DNA of 21,979 nt from a virus, in IMG/VR virus record IMGVR_UViG_3300032665_000216, positions 1 to 21,979 of that record; one strand, given 5' to 3'. Below are positions 2,993 through 13,295 of this stretch, piece by piece. Each line of letters starts with the position of its first letter. Position 1 is the first letter of the stretch. Both the position numbers and the translations under genes were made by a program. Under the pieces are notes generated by a model. That model worked only from the letters and a program-made list of their open reading frames with translations, had not been told where the DNA came from and searched no databases.

Positions 2993-3195
2993 TCTTCTGC
3001 CTCAAAATTTCCATTTGTATTAATAAAATACCATGCTCTATAGATTATAAACTTATAAATTCTGTAGTATTGGTTCCATGTATATGACCTCATTCTGAAT
3101 ATATTAAAGAGTATTATGGACACCATAACATTCTTAAACCTTTCCCATATGGTCACATCGGTAGGTACTGGTAGACCATCATCATCAAGTATCAT
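2989..3195 (-). CDS. Small protein with hydrophobic/aromatic C-terminal half
   Basis: 68 residues from ATG 3195, which overlaps the upstream TGA as ATGA; a longer frame upstream would need a TTG start inside the neighbour. It begins MILDDDGLPVPTDV. It continues with a hydrophobic stretch (NVMVSIILFNIF) and many Tyr/Trp residues (YTWNQYYRIYKFIIYRAWYF), suggesting membrane association. Not recognised. Confidence 0.72.
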   Translation of the reverse strand: MILDDDGLPVPTDVTIWERFKNVMVSIILFNIFRMRSYTWNQYYRIYKFIIYRAWYFINTNGNFEAEE

Positions 3196-3572
3196 TCTAC
3201 TTTGGTAATTTCGGGGTCGCAACCAATAATCATTTCAGTATGACCCATATCCCAACCATGTTCTTCTAGGTCAAAATATGAATTGCCTTCATCAAAGTAA
3301 TTCTCCAACCATTCTGTGGTTTCTTCATCACATTCATCATAATCATAGTCTTCACCACAACCATCTTCACATTCTACCAATTCAACCTGATATTCACAAT
3401 CGTAGAGGTCTGTACCATCTACAATATCAGGTGGTGTGTCATCTTCGGTGTATGTTGTGAATTCACCCCAACGCCATGTAGTTTCAACAATTAATAAATT
3501 ATCACCTTTGGTGAAATGCTGGCGCTCATACAATGATTTCTTCCAACTCGGTTTGATTGACCATTCTACCAT
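3192..3572 (-). CDS. Very acidic conserved phage protein
   Basis: 126 residues with a basic, Trp-rich start (MVEWSIKPSWKKS) and then an extremely acidic second half (VECEDGCGEDYDYDECDEE, later EEHGWDMGHTEMI). Acidity at this level can mean DNA mimicry or metal binding, but that is speculation. Start ATG 3572 has a strong AGGAGA ribosome site eight bases upstream. Confidence 0.82.
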   Translation of the reverse strand: MVEWSIKPSWKKSLYERQHFTKGDNLLIVETTWRWGEFTTYTEDDTPPDIVDGTDLYDCEYQVELVECEDGCGEDYDYDECDEETTEWLENYFDEGNSYFDLEEHGWDMGHTEMIIGCDPEITKVE

Positions 3573-4738: not shown

Positions 4739-4863
4739 TCTAATTCCTTTTGACACGAGACTTTACTCGGACTATAAATCAACACAAAATTACCAATACC
4801 AAAAGAACCAAGAATAGACAGAGTAAGCACAAATGCGCCAACTATAGCTAACATTGTTTTCAT
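4735..4863 (-). CDS. Tiny single-pass membrane protein
   Basis: 42 residues: M-K-T then LAIVGAFVLTLSILGSFGIG, a single hydrophobic segment (residues 4-30), then a short polar tail with one Cys. Both ends fit the operon: its ATG 4863 overlaps the upstream TGA, and its own TGA overlaps the downstream ATG at 4738. Such proteins are often accessory lysis or envelope factors, but nothing here shows which. Confidence 0.7.
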   Translation of the reverse strand: MKTMLAIVGAFVLTLSILGSFGIGNFVLIYSPSKVSCQKELE

Positions 4864-5084
4864 TCTTGAACTCCGAAATGTTCTGAAATCTTTTTCATAG
4901 CATGAACGCCAATCATTCCCGGAACTTCAATATCAACAATATCCAAACACTCAGAGACAATCAACTCGGCGAACTTTTCTAAATCTGTTTCTTTACCATC
5001 CACAACAGGAACCATTGGATTGCTCATCAATTGAGTAAATCTCAAGCCAGCCTTTTCAGCAAGTTGTCGAATTCGTTCTTTCAT
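4860..5084 (-). CDS. MNERI-family small phage protein
   Basis: 74 residues: MKERIRQLAEKAGLRFTQL, KFAELIVSECLDIVD, and the typical end KKISEHFGVQE. Positions 4962-5062 are identical over 101 bases to 7641-7741 in another family member, so part of this gene was duplicated or exchanged recently. Function unknown. Confidence 0.87.
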   Translation of the reverse strand: MKERIRQLAEKAGLRFTQLMSNPMVPVVDGKETDLEKFAELIVSECLDIVDIEVPGMIGVHAMKKISEHFGVQE

Positions 5085-5284
5085 AAGTCAATATTCCATT
5101 TCTTGGCAACCATTAAAATGCGTTCATTGCCGCCGGTAATATCTAAACAATCATAGGCAAATTCTCGGACAATCATCTTTCCAAACTTTTCAGCAAAGAT
5201 ATTGGTATATTCAAGTGTAACAGGATAACCGTCGCTGTTGTCTTTGCTAGCCTCTTCGGCAATCTGTTTGATTCTCTTATTCAT
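5081..5284 (-). CDS. MNERI-family small phage protein, divergent
   Basis: 67 residues: MNKRIKQIAEEASKDN, then FAEKFGKMIVREFAYDCLDI and an unusual end NERILMVAKKWNIDL in place of HFGVE. That 3' end reappears at 9301-9347 as a remnant without its 5' part. It overlaps neighbours by ATGA at both ends. Confidence 0.85.
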   Translation of the reverse strand: MNKRIKQIAEEASKDNSDGYPVTLEYTNIFAEKFGKMIVREFAYDCLDITGGNERILMVAKKWNIDL

Positions 5285-5505
5285 TCTTCAACTCCAACAC
5301 ATTGTTCCACATCTTTGAGGATCTTCTTGAGTTCGGCAATGTTGATTTCAAGAAACTCAATAGTAGCGTGAAGTGTAGCCTGTTTATTCAAGTCGCTTTG
5401 CCAACTACCATCACCAAATGCCATATTGAACTTTGTGTCCTTTAGCATCCGTTCCTTGCCCTCAATTGTTTTACGTAGATTTTCTTCTACGGTATGGATG
5501 TTCAT
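5281..5505 (-). CDS. Hypothetical helical small protein
   Basis: 74 residues, mostly helical (TVEENLRKTIEGKERML, then ATLHATIEFLEINIAELKKIL), ending CVGVEE. It resembles generic phage helical-bundle proteins but belongs to no family I can name. The ATG at 5505 overlaps the upstream TAA by one base. Confidence 0.8.
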   Translation of the reverse strand: MNIHTVEENLRKTIEGKERMLKDTKFNMAFGDGSWQSDLNKQATLHATIEFLEINIAELKKILKDVEQCVGVEE

Positions 5506-5831
5506 TATTCAACTCCAAAATGTTCTCTAATCTGTGTAGCCAGATAACCTGCTTCACCTGCTTCCATTAGATATCCTTTCTCGGCCCACCATCTGCCATC
5601 TTTTTCACAGATGCCAGCACATTCTAACACAAGCAACTCGGCGAATAAATTCAATCCCTCTTGATCTGGGTTATCATCAATGCCAGCCTGTTGTTTAAGC
5701 CTTTGAATTCTTGCTTCCGCCAATGACTTATTGCGAATCTTTACAAACTCGTCATACTTTTCTTTGGTGCCTATACTATAACCACCATCACCTGCATGTA
5801 TATCACCACCTGCTTTAATTTGTTCGTTCAT
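5505..5831 (-). CDS. MNERI-family protein with N-terminal extension
   Basis: 108 residues. A Gly-rich head (AGGDIHAGDGGYSIGTKEK) precedes a family core, ARIQRLKQQAGI, NLFAELLVLECAGICE and the end QIREHFGVE. The extension makes it the longest family member in the window. It looks like a fusion or insertion relative to its paralogs. Function unknown. Confidence 0.83.
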   Translation of the reverse strand: MNEQIKAGGDIHAGDGGYSIGTKEKYDEFVKIRNKSLAEARIQRLKQQAGIDDNPDQEGLNLFAELLVLECAGICEKDGRWWAEKGYLMEAGEAGYLATQIREHFGVE

Positions 5832-7495: not shown

Positions 7496-7524
7496 ATTAT
7501 ACACCAAAATGTTTTGCATTGTAT
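7496..7524 (-). promoter_or_regulatory. Possible weak promoter before the lysin
   Basis: A perfect TATAAT (7496-7501) overlaps the stop codon of the upstream gene, 59 bases before the lysin start. The -35 region (ATACAA, 7519-7524) is poor and there is no extended TGn, so read-through from the upstream unit may be the main source of lysin transcript. Confidence 0.3.
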
Positions 7525-7763
7525 AGTTTACCATAGCCAAACTCTAATTGAATCCAAGGACGATCCACTTCATCGCTCCAGTCTCTGTCCCCCGTATAGT
7601 ATGCACGCTCTTTAACTTGATCCAAAACCGCCTCAACAAGCAACTCGGCGAACTTTTCTAAATCTGTTTCTTTACCATCCACAACAGGAACCATTGGATT
7701 GCTCATCAATTGAGTAAATCTCAAGCCAGCCTTTTCAGCAATATCTTTAATTCGTTCGTTCAT
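7497..7763 (-). CDS. MNERI-family small phage protein
   Basis: 88 residues: MNERIKDIAEKAGLRFTQL and KFAELLVEAVLDQV, then a different C-terminal part (AYYTGDRDWSDEVDRPWIQL) ending NAKHFGV. The first half is identical at DNA level (7641-7741) to 4962-5062, while the second half is unrelated, a mosaic made by recombination. Confidence 0.87.
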   Translation of the reverse strand: MNERIKDIAEKAGLRFTQLMSNPMVPVVDGKETDLEKFAELLVEAVLDQVKERAYYTGDRDWSDEVDRPWIQLEFGYGKLYNAKHFGV

Positions 7764-8796: not shown

Positions 8797-8823
8797 AATA
8801 ACTCCTAATCAATTTATGGTATA

Positions 8824-8851
8824 ATTATATCAGAACCAACGGGTTTGGCAA
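8824..8851 (-). promoter_or_regulatory. sigma70-type promoter for the 8796 operon
   Basis: TTGCCA (8846-8851), 16-bp spacer ending TGA, TATAAT (8824-8829) on the minus strand. The palindromic half of a composite element (8855-8890) begins three bases upstream of the -35. Confidence 0.88.
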
Positions 8852-8854
8852 CCT

Positions 8855-8890
8855 GAGTACTATAGTATTACTTTGTTCCGGTCAAGTATT
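8855..8890. promoter_or_regulatory. Composite upstream element, copy 1
   Basis: GAGTACT-AT-AGTATTA (8855-8870), eight bases, then CGGTCAAGTATT (8879-8890). The first part is an imperfect copy of the palindrome GAGTACTAAAGTACTC. Three bases (AGG in the sense direction) separate it from the minus-strand -35. Candidate activator or repressor site. Confidence 0.6.
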
Positions 8891-9082
8891 CTGGTATTCA
8901 TACACGGCAAAATACACGGCATTGGCCTTGAGACAGGTACTAGACCTATTCGTCCGACTTCTACCAATATCCAATGCCGTGTTCCTAGGTCCACGATACC
9001 GAATTTTATAATACTTACCATTCAAGGCATTCAACTTACGGAATAGTTCCAATGCCTCAATAGGATACTTTGCTATACTCAC
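8882..9082 (-). CDS. Small basic conserved phage protein
   Basis: 66 residues starting at GTG 9082, which overlaps the upstream TGA as GTGA. GKYYKIRYRGPRN, then CLKANAVYFAVYEYQ is a pattern known from small basic phage proteins of unknown function. Net positive charge could mean nucleic acid binding. Its 3' end overlaps composite element copy 1. Confidence 0.8.
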   Translation of the reverse strand: MSIAKYPIEALELFRKLNALNGKYYKIRYRGPRNTALDIGRSRTNRSSTCLKANAVYFAVYEYQNT

Positions 9083-9303
9083 TTTTCAACTCCGAAATGT
9101 TCCATAATCACAATATCAGGCAAGGAATTAATCTCACCACAGTCTCCAATGTATTCTTCTACACGGCGTTGACATTCTTTCACAATCAACTCACCGAATA
9201 CGTCCATCATCCTAGCAACTCCAACGTTCATATCATCATTGGGATATTTTGATTTTACAATTTTTTCAGCCTGTAGAGCTAGTTTTTTAATTTGTTCGTT
9301 CAT
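9079..9303 (-). CDS. MNERI-family small phage protein
   Basis: 74 residues: MNEQIKKLALQAEKIVKSKY, FGELIVKECQRRVEEYI, ending IVIMEHFGVEK. The ATG at 9303 directly adjoins a remnant of another paralog (9301-9347). Confidence 0.87.
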   Translation of the reverse strand: MNEQIKKLALQAEKIVKSKYPNDDMNVGVARMMDVFGELIVKECQRRVEEYIGDCGEINSLPDIVIMEHFGVEK

Positions 9304-9347
9304 AAGTCAACATTCCATTTCTTGGCAACCATTAAAATGCGTTCATT
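9301..9347 (-). pseudogene. Remnant of the 3' end of a 5081-5284-type gene
   Basis: These 47 bases match 5082-5128 with one mismatch and would encode the end NERILMVAKKWNVDL of that paralog, followed by its stop overlapping the next ATG. There is no usable start in this frame: a TGA lies only a few codons upstream. The rest of the gene seems to have been lost by recombination at the end of the 9370-9639 gene. Confidence 0.7.
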
Positions 9348-9369
9348 CCATTCTCTGCTTCGTCAATAT

Positions 9370-9639
9370 TCATTCCCATTCTCCAACCATATGAGTATTA
9401 CCAAAATTGTCCCGTACAGTAAAACCAACCACATCCAAAGGCACCGACCACTTAGGTTCGTCCAAGGAAATAACATCAATTAGTTCCGCTGTCTCCTCAT
9501 ACAATACACCCATAAAGGTATAGTTAAAAAGATGCTCCTCGTCCTTCACCAATACCTCATGCACAATATTATGCTTAAACCGTTTAGAGTAGGTAGAATA
9601 GATTATCTTACCAACAAAAGGTTTCTTATAAGAATCCAT
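9370..9639 (-). CDS. Hypothetical small protein
   Basis: 89 residues from ATG 9639, preceded by GGAG five bases upstream; a longer frame begins inside the promoter and is rejected. Sequence: MDSYKKPFVGKIIYSTYSKR, then beta-like stretches (EHLFNYTFMGVLYEETAELI) and end HMVGEWE. Not recognised. Driven by promoter 9669-9696. Confidence 0.78.
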   Translation of the reverse strand: MDSYKKPFVGKIIYSTYSKRFKHNIVHEVLVKDEEHLFNYTFMGVLYEETAELIDVISLDEPKWSVPLDVVGFTVRDNFGNTHMVGEWE

Positions 9640-9668
9640 ATAATCTCCAATATCAATTAACATTAACC

Positions 9669-9696
9669 ATTCTAACATAACCACCTGATATGGCAA
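9669..9696 (-). promoter_or_regulatory. sigma70-type promoter for the 9370-9639 gene
   Basis: TTGCCA (9691-9696), 16-bp spacer ending TGT, TAGAAT (9669-9674) on the minus strand. Composite element copy 2 starts three bases upstream. Confidence 0.82.
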
Positions 9697-9699
9697 CCT

Positions 9700-9735
9700 G
9701 AGTACTAAAGTAGTCCATTATCCTAGTCAACTATT
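9700..9735. promoter_or_regulatory. Composite upstream element, copy 2
   Basis: GAGTACT-AA-AGTAGTC (9700-9715; one mismatch to a perfect palindrome), eight bases, then TAGTCAACTATT (9724-9735). The layout and 24-base offset match the other copies. Confidence 0.62.
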
Positions 9736-9741
9736 ACCAAG

Positions 9742-9856
9742 TTATCCACAGCCATTTACCATAGACGGCACCTCAAAGTTATTCACAGAGTTATCCACAG
9801 CATATTGACAGAAAATTACCTGAATTTTACCTGAAGTGTGGATAAGTTGTGGATAT
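9742..9856. other. Candidate replication origin: DnaA-box cluster
   Basis: Five DnaA-box-like nonamers lie within 115 bases: TTATCCACA at 9742-9750, TTATTCACA at 9779-9787, TTATCCACA at 9791-9799, the reverse of TTATCCACA at 9837-9845, and the reverse of ATATCCACA at 9848-9856. Three point right and two left, flanking a 37-base AT-rich stretch (9800-9836) with a TTACCTGAATT direct repeat that could melt. No gene occupies 9697-9926. Two exact matches and three copies with at most one mismatch are far more than chance in so short a stretch. Use of host DnaA by the phage is inferred. Confidence 0.68.
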
Positions 9857-9906
9857 GTCGCCTGCTGTGTCGCCAGTAGGTGAGGGGCTTTGGGACTTAG
9901 TTTCTG

Positions 9907-9924
9907 TGTTGTACCTAAACAACA
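9907..9924. promoter_or_regulatory. Third, imperfect copy of the GTTGTA/TACAAC palindrome
   Basis: TGTTGTACCTAAACAACA differs from the palindrome at 1407-1424 by its spacer and one arm base. It lies two bases past the stop codon of the 9927-10130 gene and 50 bases from the DnaA-box cluster, but no -35 follows at the usual distance. Confidence 0.35.
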
Positions 9925-9926
9925 TC

Positions 9927-10130
9927 TCAGAACCTTTCATCAAACTCACAACCAATTTCCAAGCACTTTTCACGGTCCGCCATGTAATTCACCCAGAGAT
10001 CCTCCAATTGGTTTCCAAGACCCCGGCGAACTAATTCCGTTGCCAGCGATTGTGAGTTTTTCGCATGGGGACCATTAATATACAAGCTTACCTCATAAGC
10101 TTCTAAAAGACTTACCTGTGTTTTTCGCAT
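9927..10130 (-). CDS. Hypothetical small protein
   Basis: 67 residues: MRKTQVSLLEAYEVSLYING, then AKNSQSLATELVRRGLGNQL, EDLWVNYMADREKCLEIGCE. Helical, not recognised. A GAGGT ribosome site precedes ATG 10130. It borders the putative origin, so a replication link is possible but only by position. Confidence 0.78.
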   Translation of the reverse strand: MRKTQVSLLEAYEVSLYINGPHAKNSQSLATELVRRGLGNQLEDLWVNYMADREKCLEIGCEFDERF

Positions 10131-10143
10131 ATTTTTTACCTCA

Positions 10144-10171
10144 ATTATACCTGAACAGCACCTGTTGTCAC
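10144..10171 (-). promoter_or_regulatory. Promoter overlapping a stop codon, for the 9927-10130 gene
   Basis: GTGACA (10166-10171), 16-bp spacer, perfect TATAAT (10144-10149) on the minus strand. The -10 overlaps the TAA of the upstream gene, so the start is expected just before ATG 10130 with almost no leader. Confidence 0.6.
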
Positions 10172-10432
10172 TACCGCTTTGGAAGGTTTACGGTTTGCTT
10201 TAATTGCTTTAGACCCTACTGGTGCTAATAGCTTCTCTAATTTTGCTCTTGCTTTGGCAATGGCAGCTTCTTTTCTTAACTGAGCATTTTGTGCTTTCAG
10301 TACTTTGGCGGCAACCTTAAGGTCACGCTGGAATGCCATTTCAATCCGAATTGCTTCTTTTAACTCTTTAATCAGAGCACGCTTGGAGTTGGTGGAAAGT
10401 CCCTTAAGGGATAAATCGTTGACTAATGACAT
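10145..10432 (-). CDS. Small basic Ala/Lys-rich helical protein
   Basis: 95 residues, rich in Ala, Lys and Arg: IKELKEAIRIEMAFQRDLKV, then AAKVLKAQNAQLRKEAAIAK and ARAKLEKLL form a long amphipathic or coiled-coil helix, with a basic flexible tail (SKAIKANRKPSKAV). The composition resembles histone-like nucleoid proteins (H-NS-like or phage DNA-compaction factors), but no defining motif is seen. GAGGTAA precedes ATG 10432. Confidence 0.8.
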   Translation of the reverse strand: MSLVNDLSLKGLSTNSKRALIKELKEAIRIEMAFQRDLKVAAKVLKAQNAQLRKEAAIAKARAKLEKLLAPVGSKAIKANRKPSKAVVTTGAVQV

Positions 10433-10493
10433 AATTTTTACCTCACTTTTTACCTAAATTGTTAACTAAATTCTTACCTGAGCGATACCTTGC

Positions 10494-10694
10494 TCACACC
10501 TCATATTCCATTATATCATACCCAGTAGCATCGGTGTAATCAATAACACCACAGCGATACCCGGTTGGATCTAATTCTCTGAGGATTCTAGAGCGGTCAA
10601 AGGTAATCCCGTCAATAACCACCGGACCATGCTCATCCAGCATAGCGTCAAAATGGTAGCAAGCGACCTCATATGATATACATTCTCTATTCAT
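10494..10694 (-). CDS. Hypothetical small acidic protein
   Basis: 66 residues: MNRECISYEVACYHFDAMLD, EHGPVVIDGITFDRSRILRE, LDPTGYRCGVIDYTDATGYD. Compact beta/alpha pattern, not recognised. GAGG before ATG 10694, and the promoter at 10722-10750 is strong. Confidence 0.8.
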   Translation of the reverse strand: MNRECISYEVACYHFDAMLDEHGPVVIDGITFDRSRILRELDPTGYRCGVIDYTDATGYDIMEYEV

Positions 10695-10721
10695 AATCTT
10701 TACCTCACTATTAAAACACCA

Positions 10722-10750
10722 ATTATACCAGAATTTTACCTACTTGTCAA
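10722..10750 (-). promoter_or_regulatory. Consensus sigma70 promoter for the 10494-10694 gene
   Basis: TTGACA (10745-10750), 17-bp spacer ending TGG, TATAAT (10722-10727) on the minus strand; both hexamers are perfect. Composite element copy 3 begins three bases upstream. Confidence 0.88.
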
Positions 10751-10753
10751 CCT

Positions 10754-10789
10754 GAATACTAAAGTACTCCAGTACCTCAGTCAAGTATT
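10754..10789. promoter_or_regulatory. Composite upstream element, copy 3
   Basis: GAATACT-AA-AGTACTC (10754-10769; one mismatch to the palindrome), eight bases, then CAGTCAAGTATT (10778-10789). It overlaps the stop codon of the 10788-10961 gene. Confidence 0.62.
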
Positions 10790-10961
10790 ATATCACCAAA
10801 TCTTCGTCACCAATGTATCCGATACAGTCTTGAATATCTCCGCCTGCATTGTAAATTGTACTTTCCAAATCAGAGTCACAATTCTCCGATAATTCCTGTG
10901 CTACTGAATCAATCAACGCTAACGCTTGATCCAGTTTTTCTATCATTTCATCTCTAGTCAT
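10788..10961 (-). CDS. Small helical protein, paralog of the 11475-11636 gene
   Basis: 57 residues: MTRDEMIEKLDQALALIDSV, AQELSENCDSDLESTIYNAG, GDIQDCIGYIGDEDLVI. It aligns with the 53-residue product of 11475-11636 on the opposite strand (MTxxExIExLxxAxxLIxSV at the start, NAxGDIxD near the end). No known family. It follows the 10965 gene by three bases, so the two share a transcript. Confidence 0.75.
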   Translation of the reverse strand: MTRDEMIEKLDQALALIDSVAQELSENCDSDLESTIYNAGGDIQDCIGYIGDEDLVI

Positions 10962-10964
10962 AAT

Positions 10965-11129
10965 TTACTCACTTTTAAAATATTTGAACTTTTGTACTAA
11001 TTCTCTGTAAACTTCGTTTGATTTTTGATCAATAATCATTCTATCGTCATCGTTAGTAAATAATTCTTCATTATCTCTAATAAATGATTCTAATAATAAG
11101 TACTGATTCTCTGTTAATTCGATTTTCAT
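10965..11129 (-). CDS. Hypothetical small helical protein
   Basis: 54 residues: MKIELTENQYLLLESFIRDN, EELFTNDDDRMIIDQKSNEV, YRELVQKFKYFKSE. Soluble, helical, unrecognised. First gene after promoter 11162-11189 and before 10788-10961. Confidence 0.74.
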   Translation of the reverse strand: MKIELTENQYLLLESFIRDNEELFTNDDDRMIIDQKSNEVYRELVQKFKYFKSE

Positions 11130-11161
11130 ATAATCTCTGTTTTTTGTGTTTCTAAGTCTCT

Positions 11162-11189
11162 ATTCTATCAAAATTGGAGAAATTGTCAA
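11162..11189 (-). promoter_or_regulatory. sigma70-type promoter for the 11129-10788 genes
   Basis: TTGACA (11184-11189), 16-bp spacer ending TGA, TAGAAT (11162-11167) on the minus strand. A composite element begins two bases upstream. Confidence 0.82.
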
Positions 11190-11191
11190 GC

Positions 11192-11227
11192 GTAGAATAA
11201 AGTATTACAGCATTCCGGTCAAGTATT
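11192..11227. promoter_or_regulatory. Composite upstream element, copy 4 (divergent module)
   Basis: A degenerate left arm plus AA-AGTATTA (11192-11207), eight bases, then CGGTCAAGTATT (11216-11227). A minus -35 (TTGACA) sits two bases to its left and a plus -35 (TTGCCA, 11230) two bases to its right. Confidence 0.55.
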
Positions 11228-11229
11228 GC

Positions 11230-11259
11230 TTGCCAATATTGCGCAAAGTATGATACAAT
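11230..11259 (+). promoter_or_regulatory. Weaker plus-strand promoter
   Basis: TTGCCA (11230-11235), an 18-bp spacer ending TGA, and TACAAT (11254-11259). The spacer is long, so activity may depend on the element upstream. No good gene directly follows; a transcript would run through the next promoter toward 11475. Confidence 0.45.
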
Positions 11260-11343
11260 GGTGGTAGCATGCGCACGGAAATGCTGTTGTTTTTTTACTA
11301 CGCAGCCCCAGCGTCCACCCCAGTACTGCTTTCGAATGATTCC

Positions 11344-11371
11344 ATTATACCAGAATCCGAAAATTTGGCAA
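11344..11371 (-). promoter_or_regulatory. Strong leftward promoter of the divergent module
   Basis: TTGCCA (11366-11371), 16-bp spacer ending TGG, TATAAT (11344-11349) on the minus strand. It leads into non-coding DNA and then the 11162-11189 promoter, so it may make a long leader or a separate RNA. Confidence 0.8.
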
Positions 11372-11373
11372 TA

Positions 11374-11409
11374 TAACACTAAAGTACTCAAGCAGTCCGG
11401 TCAAGTATT
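11374..11409. promoter_or_regulatory. Composite upstream element, copy 5 (divergent module)
   Basis: TAACACT-AA-AGTACTC (11374-11389), eight bases, then CGGTCAAGTATT (11398-11409). Outward-facing TTGCCA hexamers stand two bases away on both sides (11366-11371 minus, 11412-11417 plus), so one element can govern two promoters. Confidence 0.62.
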
Positions 11410-11411
11410 GG

Positions 11412-11439
11412 TTGCCAAACCCCTGGATTCTGGTATAAT
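11412..11439 (+). promoter_or_regulatory. sigma70-type promoter for the 11475 gene
   Basis: TTGCCA (11412-11417), 16-bp spacer ending TGG, TATAAT (11434-11439). First of five similar rightward cassettes. Confidence 0.88.
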
Positions 11440-11474
11440 TACTCCATAAATTGAAAAACACGTAAGGAAATAAA

Positions 11475-11636
11475 ATGACTAACCAAGAGAAAATCGAAGC
11501 ACTATCAAAAGCAATGGAATTAATTGAATCAGTTATGGATACAATTGACCCCGATTTGGAAGAAAATGAGGAATTAATTATGTTCTTGAGCAATGCTTGT
11601 GGAGATATCTCCGATTCCCAGAACATGATAGAATAA
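11475..11636 (+). CDS. Small acidic helical protein, paralog of the 10788-10961 gene
   Basis: 53 residues: MTNQEKIEALSKAMELIESV, MDTIDPDLEENEELIMFLSN, ACGDISDSQNMIE. It is related to the product on the opposite strand at 10788-10961, so the pair arose by duplication with inversion or by module exchange. AAGGA six bases before ATG. Function unknown. Confidence 0.76.
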   Translation: MTNQEKIEALSKAMELIESVMDTIDPDLEENEELIMFLSNACGDISDSQNMIE

Positions 11637-13048: not shown

Positions 13049-13081
13049 CCGACCATTCCGGTAGACTATTGGGCGAAGCGC

Positions 13082-13109
13082 TTGCCAAATCCACCAATTC
13101 TGGTATAAT
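13082..13109 (+). promoter_or_regulatory. sigma70-type promoter for the 13140-13520 genes
   Basis: TTGCCA (13082-13087), 16-bp spacer ending TGG, TATAAT (13104-13109). CGGTAGACTATT (13059-13070) lies 11 bases upstream of the -35, about one helical turn further than in the 11944 copy. Confidence 0.87.
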
Positions 13110-13139
13110 TACTCCATCAAATCAAAAAGGAAACAAAAA

Positions 13140-13295
13140 ATGACTAAAAAGCACTTTATCGCCATGGCTGATGCCTTCCGTCAAATCCAAAGCTACGAAG
13201 CTAGGAACGCTGCTGTAGTTGCTTTCTCCGAAGTAGCAAAGCAGTTTAATGCTAATTTTGACGTGATCCAATTCCGCATTGCTTGTGAGGTGTAA
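13140..13295 (+). CDS. Small phage protein (MTKKHFIAMAD type)
   Basis: 51 residues: MTKKHFIAMADAFRQIQSYE, then AVVAFSEVAKQFNANFDV and a short IQFRIACEV end. I know near-identical short proteins in many phages, often annotated as hypothetical. Helical, soluble. First gene of a four-gene cassette. Confidence 0.8.
   Translation: MTKKHFIAMADAFRQIQSYEARNAAVVAFSEVAKQFNANFDVIQFRIACEV

Follow-up and report, generated by a model that had tools for sequence, protein, structure and literature searches.

T4-type replication is the textbook case of phage DNA synthesis that starts from R-loops and recombination with the phage's own proteins. The locus described here raises the question of why a phage of this kind carries, in a segment without genes, a compact array of boxes for DnaA, the replication initiator of the bacterial host, and whether this array serves as a replication origin, as an earlier note on the same DNA had proposed.

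The array and its genomic setting

The window, that is, the whole stretch of DNA analysed, is a virus contig fragment of 21,979 bases with a mean AT content of 61.5%. Its genes include those for a T4-type RNase H (PF09293 and PF02739), a 734-aa phrog_459 peptidase and a GP88 protein, and it is part of an uncultivated T4-like myovirus genome. Isolates match at best at about 46-48% identity in RNase H and about 35% in the peptidase; these best matches come from T4-like cyanophages and Methylophilales phages, and by the peptidase the cyanophages are nearest. Among GenBank phages, no match was found by megablast of the window or by a search with the 73-aa neighbour protein. The GP88 gene (PF17338; 12004-12744, plus strand) is oriented opposite to nearly all other genes of the window, and in several relatives it likewise lies on the opposite strand near the array. 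Additionally, small related proteins of the form MNERIK...EKFAELIV.EC...EHFGVE occur in at least five copies in the window, all on the minus strand (4860-5084, 5081-5284, 5505-5831, 7497-7763 and 9079-9303), and are also found in relatives.

The array itself comprises the following features:

9742-9750, plus strand: DnaA box 1, TTATCCACA, exact
9779-9787, plus strand: DnaA box 2, TTATTCACA, one mismatch
9791-9799, plus strand: DnaA box 3, TTATCCACA, exact
9837-9845, minus strand: DnaA box 4, TTATCCACA, exact
9848-9856, minus strand: DnaA box 5, ATATCCACA, one mismatch
9779-9799, plus strand: double box formed by boxes 2 and 3, TTATTCACA-gag-TTATCCACA, 3 bp gap
9837-9856, minus strand: double box formed by boxes 5 and 4, ATATCCACA-ac-TTATCCACA as read on the minus strand, 2 bp gap
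9816-9823 and 9827-9834, plus strand: TTACCTGA repeated at a distance of 11 bp, in the interval between the converging box groups

The five boxes with at most one mismatch that the earlier note had placed in 9742-9856 were all recovered (three exact, two with one mismatch), as was their division into three on the plus strand and two on the minus strand. The number of boxes in the whole window is unremarkable (10 found, 9.0 expected); their clustering is extreme, given that the largest number in any 115 nt of shuffled sequence was three, a value reached in 2 of 400 shuffles (200 order-1 and 200 order-3 Markov), and no second place in the window resembles 9742-9856. The array is thus genuine, intergenic and far beyond chance. 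The same note had described an AT-rich core with repeats, of which the repeats hold, TTACCTGA occurring twice, and the AT-richness is only mild: the inter-box core at 9790-9839 is 68-70% AT, compared with the window mean given above and a 95th percentile of 75%. The TTACCTGA repeats are probably not diagnostic of the site, since the motif is common in the genomes of relatives; a reading of TTACCTGA/TCAGGTA as site-specific iterons was rejected, since a single strand already contains 21-28 copies of TCAGGTA in three complete relatives.

Box spacing and predicted binding of host DnaA

The arrangement of boxes was summarized over 23 representative arrays, which provide 64 neighbouring box pairs. 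Spacings of 11 or 12 bp, corresponding to gaps of 2 or 3 bp, account for 39 of the 64 adjacent pairs, and the two double boxes of the window, which face each other, represent one pair of each spacing. Pairs with a spacing of 2 or 3 bp are the main in vivo binding sites of E. coli DnaA (PMC11317965). Mismatches are likewise unevenly distributed, falling at position 1 or 5 in 33 of 39 mismatched array boxes versus 111 of 510 single-mismatch boxes elsewhere (Fisher p 3e-15, a value that ignores the shared ancestry of the arrays); position 5 is unconstrained in the E. coli consensus TTWTNCACA (PMC5835720). Based on the double-box spacing and the concentration of mismatches at positions 1 and 5, host DnaA very probably binds the array. 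The ligand would be the host protein because a DnaA domain IV protein is encoded in none of the seven relatives examined, and a phage-encoded DnaA was accordingly rejected. An attempt to infer the host from the double-box sequence failed, the same 23-mer being present in many bacterial phyla.

A conserved noncoding element beside the array

Immediately next to DnaA box 5 lies a second component of the locus:

9853-9903, minus strand: conserved element AAACTAAG-TCC...CACC...GCGAC-N7-GCGAC, noncoding, single-copy, abutting box 5

Its two GCGA copies (9870-9873 and 9858-9861) have a spacing of exactly 12 bp. In relatives, the consensus covers about 45 bp and reads AAACTAAG-nCC...CACC...GCGAC-N7-GCGAC (ACTAAG...GCGA-N8-GCG), with two GCGA copies in most members; the GCGA period is exactly 12 bp in all members found by pattern, although the search pattern, derived from the relatives inspected first, fixes this spacing by design. 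The pattern is present in 28 of 161 loci, compared with one match in a reversed-sequence control, and as a single copy in each of seven near-complete relatives, while a scan of the T4 genome returned no copy. A profile search also detected the element in many relatives (31.2 bits for the window, 44.2 for the best). We infer that a phage protein binds this ACTAAG/GCGA element.

DnaA arrays, where present, lie only downstream of the element and never upstream in gene direction (minus strand). Members with or without DnaA boxes include L293, L297, L088 and L287, among others; conversely, L092, L096 and L159 have arrays and no detectable element. After the element, some relatives carry GACACTTT/GCACTTT repeats and others have neither these nor DnaA boxes. 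The GACACTTT/GCACTTT repeats, which are possible alternative iterons, are tandem copies with a period of 10-11 bp that directly follow the element in relatives without DnaA boxes (L287 at 3188-3300; also L290, L323, L326, L090 and L104).

Several other accounts of the element were rejected. An RNA element was dismissed on finding no Rfam match in the window and no RNA covariation in the element; the repeats of T4 oriE differ from the GCGA element; and a gene strand switch at the element is not a constant feature, as G032 has none nearby.

Promoter, melting-prone DNA and flanking reading frames

Around the array, listed in gene direction, the following features were identified:

9927-10130, minus strand: 67-aa ORF upstream of the array
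9700-9714, minus strand: ACTACTTTAGTACTC motif just upstream of the -35 hexamer, common to other promoters of these phages
9669-9696, minus strand: sigma-70-type promoter TTGCCA-N16-TAGAAT, downstream of the array
9600-9680: duplex of lowest stability around the site (98-99th percentile of the window), directly after the promoter, a possible unwinding element
9370-9639, minus strand: ORF of 89 aa downstream of the promoter, counted from ATG 9639, without a family match

The left ORF had been bounded by a TTG 'start' at 9696, which is the first codon of the TTGCCA hexamer. As this TTG opens a -35 sequence with a TAGAAT -10 sequence sixteen bases on, ATG 9639, which follows TTGGAGATTAT, is preferred as the likely start. 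The segment given in the earlier note as free of genes, 9697-9926, is therefore gene-free indeed and even somewhat larger. The least stable DNA is found about 60-140 bp from the boxes, after the promoter and not in the inter-box core; among relatives, this post-promoter instability varies from 0.50 to 0.999 as a percentile rank, the window being at the 98th percentile. A search of 8800-11000 found no transcription terminator, and a terminator at the site was rejected. Promoter-like repeats of the form GAGTACTWTAGTA...TTGCCA-N16-TATAAT are present on both strands at 11150-11480, 13080-13140 and other intergenic spots, where they also yield false ORFs with the peptide WQY.TKVL.

The promoter is the basis of the main rival to an origin, which accounts for nearly the same facts: host DnaA bound to the array might switch the nearby sigma-70-type promoter and thereby tie first expression of the early block to host DnaA and its ATP state, with no origin role. 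Each of the 17 arrays tested has a TTG[C/A]CA-N15-17-TA...T promoter on the same strand, beginning 98-169 bp beyond the start of the array, early-type promoters are concentrated directly downstream of the array in G025, and DnaA is known to regulate host promoters through double boxes (PMC11317965). However, the same promoter type occurs many times elsewhere without DnaA boxes, the distance from the array to the -35 sequence varies among arrays, and the ORF downstream in the window is one small gene without a family match. We regard promoter control as a realistic possibility, though clearly a minority one.

Distribution among relatives

Loci of relatives were collected through the phrog_459 peptidase and through the 73-aa neighbour protein. 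Many relatives carry DnaA arrays at the syntenic position, roughly 4-7.5 kb 3' of the peptidase gene. Of the 80 loci retrieved with the 73-aa protein, 15 have at least three boxes within 80 nt upstream of its gene; some of the others end before this position. The array is the sole DnaA cluster in four near-complete genomes:

G022, 176,024 b: at most 4 boxes in 80 nt
G023, 176,978 b: at most 5 boxes in 80 nt
G025, 179,754 b: at most 5 boxes in 80 nt
G034, 166,193 b: at most 3 boxes in 80 nt

Order-2 shuffles gave 1-2 boxes, with 3 in one shuffle, so that the margin of G034, taken alone, is thin. Genome-wide box scans found no cluster in the near-complete G024, G026 and G032, which have kept the ACTAAG/GCGA element and lack the array, and none in T4. 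In L082, which shares about 80% DNA identity with the window over shared stretches, homology ends at window position 9858, where the array has its edge; other DNA takes the place of both the array and the 89-aa gene, and the 67-aa ORF is kept. The L082 contig is partial, so that an array elsewhere in that genome is possible. The missing array in L082, G024, G026 and G032 indicates that DnaA is dispensable for such phages.

This patchy presence and the sharp homology breakpoint in L082 would also suit a chance cluster, or a functionless leftover of acquired plasmid or host DNA. That explanation is largely refuted by conservation of the array across diverged relatives, together with the shuffles, the phased spacing and the position-specific degeneracy, and we consider it scarcely credible.

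The distribution also bears on the idea of a decoy or nucleotide-state switch, by which replicating phage genomes would titrate or convert host DnaA in the manner of datA or DARS, halting host initiation or altering the regulon. The datA and DARS loci are compact DnaA-box groups that include pairs, a likeness to the phage array; they combine the boxes with sites for IHF (or IHF and Fis) and change the nucleotide state of DnaA. At four to five boxes in each genome, times the phage copy number, a large share of host DnaA could be bound, the E. coli pool being about 200 monomers per origin (PMC5835720). Nevertheless, a pure decoy does not need a fixed position beside a conserved element and a promoter, titration explains the box number only, several relatives have no array, and the phage array, unlike datA and DARS, adjoins a phage promoter. 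Such a role appears rather improbable.

Replication initiation as the likeliest role

Taken as a whole, the site is best described as a host-DnaA array of two double boxes and one single box within a conserved phage control locus, for which starting phage replication is the likeliest role, at about even probability. The combination of a unique array, a phased element, a promoter and melting-prone DNA at one place makes replication initiation the best single reading; on this evidence, the chance that the array functions in initiation is roughly balanced. In the proposed mechanism, the helically phased double boxes would be occupied by host DnaA, which, together with a phage protein on the adjacent ACTAAG/GCGA element, could bend or open the DNA. 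Transcription from the downstream sigma-70-type promoter would enter easily melted DNA and could provide an R-loop primer or opening, after which the phage's own gp59/gp41/gp43-type replisome would take over.

Several points count against an origin of this kind. Relatives encode a gp41-like helicase and a gp59-type loader, the array is patchy, the inter-box core is not notably AT-rich, and three relatives have arrays with no detectable element. The check by cumulative GC skew, suggested in the earlier note, lent the origin no support, as complete relatives show neither a cumulative extremum nor a third-position flip at the array. The skew test is a weak one here, since T4-like phages use several origins as well as recombination for their replication, and nearly all genes lie on one strand. 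The candidate origin of that note is upheld as a non-random intergenic array, conserved in relatives and with spacing and degeneracy of a functional type, and finds no backing in GC skew. We also consider, at somewhat less than even probability, that a clade of T4-like phages has a modular origin: some lineages would combine the ACTAAG/GCGA site with a host-DnaA double-box array and a dedicated promoter, DnaA having been adopted despite T4-type replication genes and the array gained or lost as a module.

A conserved DnaA array next to a conserved single-copy element would point to the place at which a large, uncultivated T4-like group links its replication or early transcription to the host cell-cycle regulator. 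The natural gain and loss of the array among relatives offers a ready comparison, and the element is a means to locate the matching locus in relatives without DnaA boxes.

Comparison with known systems

The suggestion that a box cluster is unusual for T4-like phages agrees with the lack of a cluster in T4 and with a review of T4 replication initiation that does not mention DnaA (PMC3016281). In the open-access literature, of which coverage was incomplete, no paper was found that links DnaA boxes to T4-like origins. DnaA boxes predicted by Ori-Finder were used in a report on a Pseudomonas phage (PMC11512268), and DnaA-box arrays are already known in other lytic phages, e.g., T5-like phages (PMC13250531). 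What the analysis adds to the earlier note is the adjacent conserved element, the conserved downstream promoter and the double-box spacing. These phages probably recruit host DnaA at the array, perhaps for the start of replication or for an early promoter, which is undescribed for T4.

T4 belongs to the same broad phage group, with gp41, gp59 and RNase H homologues in common. Its oriF (ori(uvsY)) and oriG (ori(34)) consist of a promoter with a downstream unwinding element, and oriE of 12-nt repeats with an early promoter, so that the order of promoter and easily melted DNA, as well as the combination of 12-nt repeats and promoter, resembles the present locus (PMC3016281). In contrast, the T4 genome lacks both a DnaA cluster and the element, and oriE lies inside gene 5. 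Origins of the oriF/oriG type have a MotA-dependent middle promoter; the -35 sequence here, TTGCCA, is sigma-70 like.

In iteron plasmid origins (P1, F, RK2, pSC101 and R6K), initiator repeats in helical phase accompany DnaA sites and a region that melts (PMC5043065), an organization similar to the phased repeats, DnaA boxes and melting region of the phage locus. In contrast to these plasmids, most phage members have only two GCGA repeats, the candidate element has no assigned phage initiator, and helicase and loader come from the phages themselves. Bacterial oriC likewise has several intergenic DnaA boxes, including double boxes with 2-3 bp gaps; the phage locus differs in that it lacks an established unwinding element within the array as well as a skew switch, and in that the relatives have no dnaA gene.

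Injection from a fixed end does not occur in T4-like phages whose genomes are circularly permuted, and two of the relatives have overlapping contig ends. Both points argue against a DNA-entry pause or other architectural site like the proposed T5 injection stop signal, which we hold to be very unlikely here, even though T5-like phages have 12-bp-spaced double DnaA boxes in a noncoding terminal repeat and the T5 stop signal has been described as holding DnaA boxes (PMC13250531). The T5 signal, a gene-free region with repeats and DnaA boxes, belongs to the first-step-transfer end of a fixed-end genome with A1/A2 genes. The T5-like region, compared on a T5-like record, shares with the array its occurrence in a lytic phage, its noncoding position and its double-box spacing, and differs in phage family, in its location in terminal repeats and in the proposed role in DNA entry. 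Beyond these systems, an intergenic DnaA-box group with a 12-bp double box was observed in the unrelated Lactococcus phage AM4 (L363) at 1505-1595, and the same double box was also matched in Streptomyces and Microbacterium phage records.
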